Of a stretch of 64,000 nucleotides of DNA, positions 54,832 to 58,436 are shown piece after piece (positions within the stretch are counted from its first letter, which is position 1; each line of letters starts with the position of its first letter). Both the position numbers and the translations under genes were made by a program. Below the pieces are notes generated by a model. The model worked only from the letters and a program-made list of their open reading frames with translations, was not told the DNA's origin and did no database searches. The DNA is from Coriobacteriaceae bacterium (GTDB taxonomy: Bacteria > Actinomycetota > Coriobacteriia > Coriobacteriales > Coriobacteriaceae), in contig CABJBO010000009.1 of the NCBI GenBank assembly GCA_902363875.1, forward strand, positions 3,602-67,601, in the 5' to 3' direction.

Positions 54832-55770
54832 TTATGCCGAGGCCTTGGCCTTGCGGCGCTTGCGGACCGCGTGGATCACGATGTCCAACAGCAACAGCAC
54901 AATGGCTACGACCACAATGAGCACGGCAAACTCGCGCTTGCCCCAGTGGCGGCCGGCCAGCGACTTTTGCTTGTCGACGTCCTTCTTGCTGTACTTGGTG
55001 CGCACGCAATGCACCAGCAGGCGATGGTCGTTCACGCCGTAGGGCGTACAGGTGACGAGCGTCACCTTGTCGGCGCCGGGCTCGATAGTCAGCGACTCCA
55101 TCTCCTCGGGCAGCACGACCTCGGAGTCCACCATCTTGTAGGCGAGCGTCTTGTTCATGGTGTGCAGCAGCACCAGGTCGCCGGGCTCCAGCGAATGGAT
55201 GTCGTCGAACATGCTCAGGTTGCGCATGCCCGAGTGCGCGGTGAGCACGCAATGCGTCGAGGTGCCGCCCACCGGCAGGCTCGTGCCCTCCAGGTGGCCG
55301 ACGCCCGCCATAAGGACTTCTTCACTCGTGCCGTGGTAGATGGGCATGCTCACGTCGATGGAAGGGATTTCGACCCAGCTCATCATGGGGTCGCGGTCAA
55401 AGATGAGTTGCTGGGCGTAGGGCTCGATCTGGTCGGCGGGAAGCTCGGTGGCCTCGCCCGCCAGCTGCTCGTTAAAGGAGCGCGCCTGGAGCAGGATGCG
55501 CTCGCGCTCCTCGGCAGACAGCGCGTCCACGGTGCTGGACACCGTGCTGATCTGGTTAAACACGCCCGAGGCCTCGAGCCGGTCCAAAATCCACGGCCAG
55601 GTCATAAGGCCCACGCCAATAAGGATAATGACGATGGTGATGAGCCGGTCGGCCCAGCGCGGCAGTCGCTTGCGACGGCGCTTGGGCTTTGGTTGAGGTT
55701 TGGGCTGAGGGCTTGAGCCACCGTTGTCCGTGGCGTTATTGCTCTTCATATGTTTGGCGCCCTGCACCAT
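54832..55770 (-). CDS. Class C (pilin-polymerising) sortase
   Basis: The 312-residue transpeptidase has a Pro/Lys/Arg-rich cytoplasmic start, a membrane segment at ~42-62, catalytic His179 in LTAHSG, Cys241 in TLVTCTPYGVNDHRLLV and Arg250, and a second membrane segment at ~281-300, the two-anchor plan of SrtC. A DP pair in FDRDPMMSW could be the active-site lid. It joins the three LPxTG-type proteins encoded upstream into a pilus. It is separated from the backbone pilin gene by the 1-kb RNA/peptide cassette region, so it may have its own promoter. Confidence 0.93.
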   Translation of the reverse strand: MVQGAKHMKSNNATDNGGSSPQPKPQPKPKRRRKRLPRWADRLITIVIILIGVGLMTWPWILDRLEASGVFNQISTVSSTVDALSAEERERILLQARSFNEQLAGEATELPADQIEPYAQQLIFDRDPMMSWVEIPSIDVSMPIYHGTSEEVLMAGVGHLEGTSLPVGGTSTHCVLTAHSGMRNLSMFDDIHSLEPGDLVLLHTMNKTLAYKMVDSEVVLPEEMESLTIEPGADKVTLVTCTPYGVNDHRLLVHCVRTKYSKKDVDKQKSLAGRHWGKREFAVLIVVVAIVLLLLDIVIHAVRKRRKAKASA

Positions 55771-55936
55771 CGCCAGTCACTCCTCTACAGCTCAGGTTGT
55801 CTAAACAAATAATAGCCGATTAGCGAGCTTCTGCGCCGGACAACACAGCTAGACTGCACCGTCCAGTCGAGGATAAGCCAGCATTTGCGTTTTCAAAATG
55901 TCCCGAATCGGCGGGGCGATTCGGGATACAATGTCA

Positions 55937-56035
55937 GTAGAAAACGACGCACCCCGCGTAAATGTTTGGGAGCGCGGGCGGCCTAGTTTTCAGCTTTTGT
56001 TAAATGCCCGGGATCCGACCCCCGGGCATTCTTAT
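55937..56035 (+). ncRNA. Predicted small RNA, copy 1 (antitoxin-like)
   Basis: A TACAAT box (55927-55932) follows the perfect hairpin TCCCGAATCG/CGATTCGGGA (55901-55926). The presumed RNA folds with GAAAAC/GTTTTC (55940-55945, 55986-55991) enclosing CCCGCG/CGCGGG (55953-55958, 55973-55978), then a terminator hairpin AATGCCCGGG/CCCGGGCATT (56003-56030). The second copy keeps the same folding with one compensatory change. It is convergent with the 50-residue peptide gene. No -35 box is obvious and the hairpin might itself be part of the RNA. Existence is inferred from structure and duplication. Confidence 0.5.
56003..56030. terminator. Shared bidirectional terminator hairpin
   Basis: AATGCCCGGG (56003-56012) and CCCGGGCATT (56021-56030) form a perfect 10-bp stem. 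It lies two bases past the peptide stop on the minus strand and at the end of the predicted plus-strand RNA. U-rich stretches are short on both sides (CTTATTT on plus; TTAACAAAAG on minus). Confidence 0.6.
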
Positions 56036-56184
56036 TTGCGCTTGTTGCGGCGCAAATGCCTTCTACCGTCCGCACCGCGCGTGCGCCTACGGACCTTAAA
56101 CCGAACCTCATACGAGTCAAGAAACGCGATAACGAACGTGCCCACCGCCGCGAGGGCGGCGAGCGCGTTAAGGAATTTCAGCAT
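56032..56184 (-). CDS. 50-residue membrane peptide, candidate type I toxin
   Basis: The peptide has one membrane segment at residues ~3-22 (LKFLNALAALAAVGTFVIAF) and a strongly basic tail (about 14 Arg/Lys in the last 26, ending RRNKRK). GGAGGT lies six bases before the ATG, an excellent ribosome site, which makes this a real gene despite its size. Its 3' end converges on the predicted small RNA through a shared hairpin. Fst/TxpA-type toxins have this size and layout, but I see no sequence family match. A holin-like or regulatory membrane peptide is the alternative. Confidence 0.6.
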   Translation of the reverse strand: MLKFLNALAALAAVGTFVIAFLDSYEVRFKVRRRTRGADGRRHLRRNKRK

Positions 56185-56252
56185 ATGGTGACCTCCGATC
56201 GAGTCGTCGGCCGCCCGCGCACGGGATGCGTCGCAAGGGTATTTTACTGCGA

Positions 56253-56262: not shown

Positions 56263-56418
56263 CCACAGCCGGTAAACGCGATTTTGACAAACATTTGTTC
56301 GATAGTTACACACACGGCTCCTCGTCCAGCGGAGCCTGGCCGCATTGTCCGGGTTTGCCCGAAATGTTTGCGTTTTCAAATGTCCCGAATCGGCGAAGCG
56401 ATTCGGGATACAATAGCT

Positions 56419-56515
56419 ACAGGAAACGACGCATCCCGCGTAAGTACTTAGGAGCGCGGGCGACCAGTTTCCGGTGTTGTTAAATGCCCGGGCCTCTAAC
56501 CCCGGGCATTCTTAC
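56419..56515 (+). ncRNA. Predicted small RNA, copy 2
   Basis: This repeats copy 1 at an offset of 480-482 bases: leading hairpin 56383-56408, TACAAT 56409-56414, stem GGAAAC/GTTTCC (56422-56427, 56467-56472), stem CCCGCG/CGCGGG (56435-56440, 56455-56460) and terminator 56483-56510. The outer stem differs from copy 1 on both sides (A-U to G-C), so pairing is preserved. Loops have diverged more than stems. Confidence 0.5.
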
Positions 56516-56622
56516 TTGCGCTTGCTGCGGCGCAAATGCCTTCTACCGTCCGCACCGCGCGTGCGCCTACGGACCTTAAACCGAACCTCATACGAGTCAA
56601 GAAACGCGATGACGAACGTGCC
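56512..56622 (-). pseudogene. Truncated copy of the 50-residue peptide gene
   Basis: Codons for GTFVIAFLDSYEVRF through the basic tail ending RRSKRK are nearly identical to copy 1, but similarity stops just before residue 15. The sequence further upstream has an in-frame stop and no start or ribosome site. The N-terminal half of the membrane segment is lost. Confidence 0.65.
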
Positions 56623-56656
56623 CGCATCGGACGATGGAGGCTGGCTGCGTTATCCC

Positions 56657-56695
56657 AAAAAAAACGGGGCAGACTCCAGTGCGGAGTCTGCCCCG
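56657..56695 (-). terminator. Terminator of the backbone pilin gene
   Basis: GGAGTCTGCCCCG (56683-56695) pairs perfectly with 56665-56677, followed on the minus strand by eight T residues. It separates the pilin genes from the sortase. Confidence 0.9.
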
Positions 56696-56795: not shown

Positions 56796-58436
56796 TTACT
56801 TCTGCTCGGACTCCTCGGCCTGCTTACGGCTGCGGATGAGGTGCACCACGCCGATGCACAGCACCGCGCCACCAGCGATCCAAGTGAAGGTCACGCCGTT
56901 AAGGCCGGTCAGCGGGAGGCCAGAGCCCTTCTTGTTTTCAATGGTAATGGACATGACCGAACCATTTGCAGTACCGGGAGTGACCTTTTCGACGTCTTCG
57001 CCAACGGCCAGCGTCGACAATTTGCCGTTTTCATCATAGGTCGGCGTAACCGTAATCTGGAAGGGCGCGATAGTGTTGTAGCCCGAAGGAGTGGTCGTCT
57101 CGGCAATCTCATACGTACCCTTAACGAGGCCAGGGATTAAAACCTCGCCGCTCGTAGCATCGGTCATAAACTCAGAAGCATTTTCTTTAGTCTCGACAAG
57201 GGTCCCGTCATCCTTAAGCCATTTGCCAGCAGAGGCAGAGTCCCCGTTGTTAACAACTTTGACCTTAAAGCCAGCAGCAAGTTTTTTGTCCTTATTGCCT
57301 TCCTCAACCTTGGTAATATCCAAGCCGAAAACGTAGTCGGTGACTTTCTTCGGCGTAGAGGTGCCGGTGCCTTTACTCATGGGGTCGTTGGAGTAGACAA
57401 GCGTGACTTCGTTGGTGTTGCCGGTAGCCGTGTATTCAGCATCGCGAGTAAGCTTGGCCTTGTAGGTCACAACGACCTTAGAATTCTTAGTCAGGGTCAC
57501 GTTCGAAGCCTTTGCAGCGGCCTTGAGGTCGGTAAAGGAAATCATCAGGTCATGGCCTGTAACCTTGTTGGAAGCATTCAAAGTATCCGTAAGCTTCACG
57601 CTGTAGTTATTTGTAGGCTGGACAGACTGACCGTTAATAGTCACGGCAACGGAGCTCTGAATAGCCTCCAGTCCAACGGAAAGATGGTCATGGAACTCAT
57701 ATGTGTATGTGGTAAAGGTGTCGATGTTATCGGCGACAGAGCCAGTCAACCTATATTCGATTTCCTCACCGATCTGGGAGTCGCTCACGTTTCCCCAGGT
57801 GCCGTTCTCTTTAACCTCCTTGTCGACGGTAGGAATGCTGGTCTTCTCCTTAATTTTGACCGCTTCATCGCCAACAACAGTGAAAATGGGGGCAGTGGCA
57901 GCTTCAGCGTCTGTGACGGTAGAGGCGTCAGTCACAAAGAGCCAGTAGCCGTGTGAAAGGTTGTTAGCAACGCCATTCGAAGTGGTCGTGAAATCACTTG
58001 AATCGTCCAGATCGGTCACCGCAGACACGGCAGCTGCAATCTTGTATGCAGCAGATTCAGATGCCACACGGGACTCTTCATCGGTACCCATCACGTGTCC
58101 CTTGATCCATTCAGCAGCATCCTGAGCAGTGGCTATATTGTCACTAGGATCGATTCCCGTAATTACCCCCTTAACAGCAGCTTCCACCTTTTCGTTTGCC
58201 CATGTGATATTGCTCACAAGCGTCTTGCCATTCTCGTCCTTTACCACATTGGCATCGAAGATCTTGTAACCTTTAAAATCGGTAACGTTCTGCTTTGCGT
58301 TCTCGATGGTCACCGAACCGGTCGCGGCGCCCTCAGCAAACGCCATGGTCACCGGGGCAATCACGCCGCCGAAGCTCAGGGCTGCTGTGAGGCCGGCTGT
58401 TACTGCCAGGCGTGCGATGTTCTTGGTTGCTTTCAT
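56796..58436 (-). CDS. Sortase-anchored backbone pilin
   Basis: The 546-residue precursor has a signal peptide (MKATKNIARLAVTAGLTAAL..., cleavage near AFAEG), two or three Ig-like pilin domains, an E-box-like YEIAETTTPSGY and a C-terminal sorting signal LPLTG at 507-511, then a membrane segment and charged tail. PTVDKEVKENGTW probably supplies the pilin Lys for the inter-subunit bond. Thr-rich composition and size fit the SpaA/FimA major pilin. It has no strong promoter visible, and a strong terminator after it. The sequence is less GC-rich than the minor pilin gene. Confidence 0.92.
   Translation of the reverse strand: MKATKNIARLAVTAGLTAALSFGGVIAPVTMAFAEGAATGSVTIENAKQNVTDFKGYKIFDANVVKDENGKTLVSNITWANEKVEAAVKGVITGIDPSDNIATAQDAAEWIKGHVMGTDEESRVASESAAYKIAAAVSAVTDLDDSSDFTTTSNGVANNLSHGYWLFVTDASTVTDAEAATAPIFTVVGDEAVKIKEKTSIPTVDKEVKENGTWGNVSDSQIGEEIEYRLTGSVADNIDTFTTYTYEFHDHLSVGLEAIQSSVAVTINGQSVQPTNNYSVKLTDTLNASNKVTGHDLMISFTDLKAAAKASNVTLTKNSKVVVTYKAKLTRDAEYTATGNTNEVTLVYSNDPMSKGTGTSTPKKVTDYVFGLDITKVEEGNKDKKLAAGFKVKVVNNGDSASAGKWLKDDGTLVETKENASEFMTDATSGEVLIPGLVKGTYEIAETTTPSGYNTIAPFQITVTPTYDENGKLSTLAVGEDVEKVTPGTANGSVMSITIENKKGSGLPLTGLNGVTFTWIAGGAVLCIGVVHLIRSRKQAEESEQK

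Follow-up and report, generated by a model that had tools for sequence, protein, structure and literature searches.

We examined a 64,000-nucleotide stretch of the genome of a Coriobacteriaceae bacterium (GenBank assembly GCA_902363875.1, contig CABJBO010000009.1, positions 3,602 to 67,601; hereafter, the window), in which a convergent pair of small transcription units lies between a sortase gene (54832-55770) and a pilin gene (56796-58436). The initial annotation had proposed this pair as a type I toxin-antitoxin module, and every element it listed can be found in the sequence. On the minus strand, a 50-codon gene (MLKFLNALAALAAVGTFVIAFLDSYEVRFKVRRRTRGADGRRHLRRNKRK, 56032-56184) encodes a predicted one-helix membrane peptide with a basic tail; its ATG start codon occupies positions 56184-56182, and a GGAGG ribosome site lies 7 nucleotides upstream (plus-strand CCTCC, 56192-56196). 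On the plus strand, an RNA unit (55927-56035)—the putative antitoxin RNA—opens with a TACAAT -10 box (55927-55932), TAnnnT being present at the same place in most members of the family described below, and continues with a 5' hairpin (55940-55991) closed by a basal stem of GAAAAC (55940-55945) and GTTTTC (55986-55991). Within this hairpin, a loop separates arm X1 (GACGCACCCCGCG, 55946-55958) from arm Y1 (CGCGGGCGGCC, 55973-55983), and the second nested stem of the unit has the form (GC)..CCCGCG / CGCGGG..(GC). Both units run into the same hairpin of 10 perfect base pairs (56003-56012 / 56021-56030, both strands), which would act as the terminator of the RNA and as the 3' hairpin of the peptide messenger RNA (mRNA); the stop codon of the peptide gene abuts it, and CTTATTT directly follows the 56003-56030 element. 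A consensus scan, weak when taken alone (5 sites versus 1.3 in shuffled sequences), picked this hairpin as terminator-like on the RNA strand only, and a strict sigma-70 search of the window called neither of the two promoters.

Three features were lacking from the initial annotation—a repeated leader hairpin (56208-56232), a second copy of the module and a kinship of the RNA with Rfam family RF01700 (Collinsella-1). Downstream of its own -10 box (TAAAAT, 56241-56246, minus strand), the peptide mRNA starts with a short near copy of the RNA 5' hairpin, in which arm X2 (GACGCATCCCG, 56222-56232, minus strand) repeats X1 with T replacing C and arm Y2 (CGGGCGGCCG, 56208-56217, minus strand) repeats Y1. 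The predicted partner of Y2 is either X2 or the ribosome site, where GGAGG and its flank (56185-56198, minus strand) form part of a segment that we term Z. The second copy of the module (56373-56623) lies 480 nucleotides from the first. Its RNA unit is intact (56409-56514, plus strand; aligned blocks 83-93% identical to the first copy), and its peptide, cut at about residue 14, is reduced to the C-terminal part (56512-56623, minus strand), with neither start codon nor leader. Comparable N-terminal losses were observed among peptide matches in several relatives. Near-perfect palindromes (55901-55926 and 56383-56408) abut the -10 boxes of both RNA copies; canonical Collinsella-1 loci have a similar palindrome, which most family members, by eye, lack. 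These palindromes may belong to the RNA, serve as operators or be relics.

Judged by its sequence, the window RNA is a divergent relative of Collinsella-1. The Rfam model matched the first copy at 16.9 bits (E 0.06) and the second (56341-56507) at 28.3 bits (E 2.7e-5), both missing the gathering score of 35 bits; among 58 relatives, 19 genomes had a match at E ≤ 0.001 (23 to 222 bits), 15 of them exceeding the cut-off, and the scores of other members of our alignment A1 reached 221.9 bits. At the gathering score, it recovered none of the 16 pattern-found Coriobacteriia loci given to it and 3 of 20 first-set loci of other families. Collinsella-1 and the units studied here have a core hairpin, a spacer and a terminator in common, and they differ in the first two stems of Collinsella-1, which lie upstream of the -10 box and, by eye, are missing from most members of our family. 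The remaining Rfam matches were rejected (E 0.066 or worse, all below gathering). In the available part of the paper that describes it, Collinsella-1 appears as one table row with no function given (PMC2864571), and its name and accession were found in no further paper of the open-licence section of PubMed Central.

A covariance model of the predicted fold, R1, was built from 22 units cut from the -10 box to beyond the terminator, with the structure drawn by hand. Paired cells made up 86.7% of this alignment against 77.2% after shuffling, and the covariation score of 0.348 (shuffled, 0.172) was reached by 0 of 500 shuffles. Two-sided changes affected 14 of the 22 pairs, a number reached by 1 of 500 shuffles, and 10 of those 14 pairs belong to the terminator; further pair types did not rise above the shuffled level (25 versus 24.5), and the four CCCG/CGGG pairs of the core are invariant, hence uninformative on covariation. 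In the window, R1 scored 59.2 and 49.1 bits on the first and second copies—both of which were among the 22 sequences used to build it—and no more than 13 bits anywhere else.

The covariance-model search that the initial annotation had suggested recovered R1 matches (E ≤ 0.01) in 29 of 43 genomes of the genus and in 31 of 149 genomes of the class, the latter spread over 12 of 78 genera; in a sample of the phylum, 4 of 198 genomes matched at E ≤ 1e-4, all from the same genus or order. Several RNA units can occur per genome, with five places in each of two genomes (G035 and G017) and six in a third (G148), the last of them weak. We also assembled a second set by scanning a species collection with an RNA pattern and examining the 80 loci listed of 120 stretches. 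Of those listed, 34 contain a full R1 unit (E 1.1e-7 or lower), whereas the best R1 match in the other 46 has E 0.0037. The 34 coincide with the loci that carry a Coriobacteriia title, including Collinsella, Adlercreutzia, Gordonibacter, Slackia, Enterorhabdus, Senegalimassilia, Rubneribacter and Atopobiaceae; membership of Coriobacteriia was checked for three of these genera, and the remaining ones presumably belong to the same class. Six pattern matches in viral contigs were discarded, R1 finding a partial hairpin at E 0.036 in four of them and nothing in two.

The association between this RNA and a peptide gene was assessed with a finder that required an opposite-strand stop codon -26 to +40 nucleotides from the RNA end, a ribosome site, 26-70 codons and a hydrophobic segment; its criteria were fixed after the first loci had been seen and left unchanged for the second set. 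The first set comprised 113 units—81 retained from 149 matches, the loci L001-L030 and the two window units—of which 108 were non-identical and 59 less than 85% alike (non-redundant). To arrive at the 81, we dropped places that occurred in two loci, matches on the opposite strand of a hairpin already counted, and matches that were partial or weak, including one weak second unit in L117/L025. A peptide gene was present at the RNA terminator in 55 of the 108 non-identical units and in 28 of the 59 non-redundant ones (L014 was scored as lacking it, although its sequence could encode a peptide whose helix contains a proline). Random-position controls gave 33/2160 (either strand, larger set) and 5/1180 and 25/1180 (smaller set), and the mirror position gave 0/59. 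For the second set, 39 of 75 R1 matches were used, five of which were first-set loci; 22 of the 34 new units carried a peptide gene. The expectation that peptide and RNA would always occur together held in one direction. Peptides of the type found in the window (window-type) matched at E < 1e-10 in 14 of the 58 genomes, and 19 of the 20 matches lay within 11 nucleotides of an R1 match (some truncated, and one R1 match weak at E 0.008), whereas about half of the RNA units lack an intact peptide by the criteria used. The lone exception among the 20 (G031:C22:37662-37784) is a peptide copy without its C-terminal end and with no RNA match beside it. The arrangement originally described—a convergent RNA and a small membrane-peptide gene with a common terminator in Coriobacteriia—thereby finds strong comparative support far beyond the window.

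The repeated hairpin recurs as well. A leader motif was detected in 51/55 and 22/24 loci with a peptide in the two sets, in 6/53 and 4/15 loci without one and in 81/4590 background stretches; TAnnnT lies upstream of the motif in 60 of 73 leaders (shuffled 0.28). Both arms could be compared in 34/55 and 22/28 loci, with window-type RNAs falling outside the pattern and two wrongly parsed loci (L128 and L130) kept. Across 22 loci, and out of 11 flank and internal-loop letters, X and Y pairs from the same locus shared 9.5 and foreign pairs 7.4 (0/20000 permutations). At the letter preceding CCG, which was left unscored in the template, the RNA has C and the mRNA has T in 38 of the 39 first-set loci that could be parsed (three of the 42 given could not; 24 of 25 among parsed loci less than 85% alike), the odd locus, L151, being mis-parsed in its RNA. 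Among new loci of the second set, the search pattern mostly fixed the C of the RNA, which leaves the mRNA letter as the informative one; it was T in 20 of 22. Ten of 13 window-type loci, the window included, follow the same rule, and three have T in both transcripts. Moreover, the predicted duplex between Y2 and Z reached -19.1 kcal/mol versus -10.5 kcal/mol in shuffled sequences, and over 28 loci Y2 was predicted to pair better with its own partner than with foreign ones (0/20000).

From these sequence features, we consider that the elements probably form an undescribed family of type I toxin-antitoxin-like modules, in which the units are arranged as in par, the leader would mask itself and some loci would be relics that retain the antitoxin alone. 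The convergent RNA would act as antitoxin to a putative membrane toxin peptide; the two predicted transcripts, by their layout, are complementary at the common terminator. Leader arm Y2 would either form a soft hairpin with X2 or pair with the ribosome site, masking its own mRNA. RNA units without a peptide, including nine high-scoring Collinsella-1 loci, may be antitoxin-only relics by analogy with zor/orz, for which antitoxin-only copies are known according to the part of the source at hand (PMC11264685). No type I toxin-antitoxin-like module described for Coriobacteriia was found in the open-licence section of PubMed Central. On this reading, the orphan Collinsella-1 family would gain a partner and a testable job, and modules of this kind would extend to a class whose members are common in the human gut.

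Among known systems, par/Fst of plasmid pAD1 has the same layout, with convergent units, a common terminator and a ribosome site masked in the toxin mRNA, as set out in the available sections of its description (PMC7472228). Like its RNA I and RNA II, the present units have convergent promoters, a common terminator, a ribosome site predicted to be masked by a leader hairpin and a small membrane peptide with a charged tail. At the sequence level, convergent promoters and a bidirectional terminator of the Fst/Ldr type are indeed found (-10 boxes and a convergent layout across the family, with the terminator scan positive on the RNA strand only). However, going by the same sections, inverted rather than direct repeats join the two 5' ends here, and the RNA carries a large 5' hairpin of its own. 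In addition, the PxxxG motif occurs in only 2 of 70 distinct peptides, and a comparison of 36 diverse peptides with Pfam and NCBIfam returned neither Fst nor Ldr at E ≤ 1 (TisB appeared once, weakly, at E 0.29). Because both the sequence match and the motif are missing, the family, as tested here, is not a member of Fst/Ldr. The Bacillus modules TxpA/RatA and BsrG/SR4 likewise have convergent RNAs that overlap at the 3' end. In BsrG/SR4, pairing lengthens the stem that contains the ribosome site of BsrG, such that 3'-end pairing can deepen its masking, as the consulted portion of the source reports (PMC4147584). In that portion, the overlaps amount to about 75 and about 120 nucleotides, whereas the overlap predicted here extends little beyond the terminator, and a repeated leader hairpin is not mentioned there for either system; neither was matched as a family by our peptides.

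The peptides themselves are held together by layout more than by sequence. Lengths range from 30 to 50 residues (median 42) across the 70 distinct peptides; the hydrophobic segment begins at about residue 5, 52 of the peptides carry a net positive charge, and mean column identity over 36 of them is 26%. No convincing family match was obtained against Pfam and NCBIfam (8, then 36 peptides), PADLOC and PHROGs (5 peptides) or solved structures (36-peptide profile), the best weak matches being E 0.0097 (one peptide, NCBIfam ComGE), 0.031 (Pfam) and 0.11 (PHROGs), with none in PADLOC. The window-type peptide has 128 relatives in a protein collection; those with names are annotated as hypothetical Collinsella proteins, no Pfam domain occurs in any of the 120 listed, and EGYY_28560 of Eggerthella sp. 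YY7918 is a distant relative. The ratio of non-synonymous to synonymous polymorphism (pN/pS), pooled over pairs that are not independent, was 0.35 for 11 distinct window-type open reading frames (variable sites 6/3/9 by codon position) and 0.30, 0.51, 0.54 and 0.84 in other small peptide groups. In two loci (L125 and L198), some peptides have prolines inside the membrane segment and a different charge; the peptides may therefore act in more than one way.

Genomic context bears on a different account, in which the peptide acts not as a toxin but as a small membrane regulator, comparable to small proteins that modulate transporters, sortase or other membrane enzymes, with its level adjusted by the convergent RNA. 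Apart from the window itself, the non-identical set contains 25 window-type units, and all of them have matches to the window's sortase and/or pilin nearby. At these loci, the sortase is 96-99% identical to that of the window and the pilin only 37-62%, so the subfamily sits at the border of a variable pilin locus; the module might contribute to keeping or exchanging the pilin gene. This position is limited to the window-type subfamily: ten loci inspected by eye lie on the chromosome in varied contexts, those outside the subfamily among unrelated genes, and no mobile elements were seen in their flanks in this purely visual survey. A DNA-only search with the window unit (blastn; peptides were not searched) returned nothing from a phage collection and two chance-level matches (E 0.08) from a plasmid collection. 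Such settings would suit a chromosomal regulator, and it is location that suggests the role in pilus biogenesis raised by the initial annotation, for the window-type subfamily only. Conversely, the presence of several units per genome, the very divergent peptides in which only the layout is kept and the loss of the peptide while the RNA is retained are traits that characterize toxin modules more than they do a conserved regulator; they count against the regulatory-protein account, which we regard as unlikely.

The RNA-only loci invite another explanation, namely that the RNA is an independent trans-acting regulator with the peptide gene as one target, and that the leader hairpin is a recognition site for the RNA or for a common RNA-binding protein. 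Such loci are common and include nine high-scoring Collinsella-1 units in which the finder saw no peptide (L001-L005, L007, L008, L010 and L012; 155-222 bits), and a hairpin of identical type in both transcripts could be a protein site. Yet the peptide is associated with the RNA far above chance, and the hairpin letters match locus by locus in a way that a single common protein would not need; we give this explanation little credence. Equally improbable is that the twin hairpins are by-products of an inverted duplication whose ends gene conversion keeps alike without joint function, for although the two ends are inverted repeats in the DNA and own pairs are more alike than foreign ones, the C/T difference persists in 38/39 and 20/22 parsed loci while adjacent letters match, the loops of the twin hairpins are of unequal length and the best fit for Y2 is the ribosome site at its own locus.

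Within the toxin-antitoxin-like reading, the twin hairpins allow a more specific and tentative proposal, which we see as possible without favoring it. The antitoxin RNA would be a free-standing copy of the mRNA leader switch: what Y2 does to the ribosome site in cis, Y1 would do in trans, with the C/T letter stabilizing the hairpin of the RNA and softening that of the leader. Leader mimicry, rather than plain antisense overlap, would then be the means of control, in a family that spans Coriobacteriia. Compared with the direct repeats DRa/DRb, through which the RNA of Fst/Ldr systems covers the ribosome site, Y1 resembles an anti-ribosome-site segment; its predicted pairing in trans was only slightly better than controls, and co-folding of the two 5' domains revealed no clear preference for the own partner (P 0.07), such that these predictions hint faintly at trans pairing of the 5' hairpins. 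The leader would represent a type in which one arm fits either a soft hairpin or the ribosome site and a near copy of the hairpin is carried by the opposing RNA, with the recurrent one-letter C/T difference providing a sharp experimental handle.

Finally, two minor observations concern the surroundings of the modules. In the flank of one locus (L153), a neighboring open reading frame resembles, on visual inspection, a type II antitoxin, and from its motif we take it to be of the Phd/RelB kind. In the window, a strong terminator-like hairpin on the minus strand (56665-56695) lies between the pilin gene and the module, and it may separate transcription of the pilin from that of the peptide gene and sortase.
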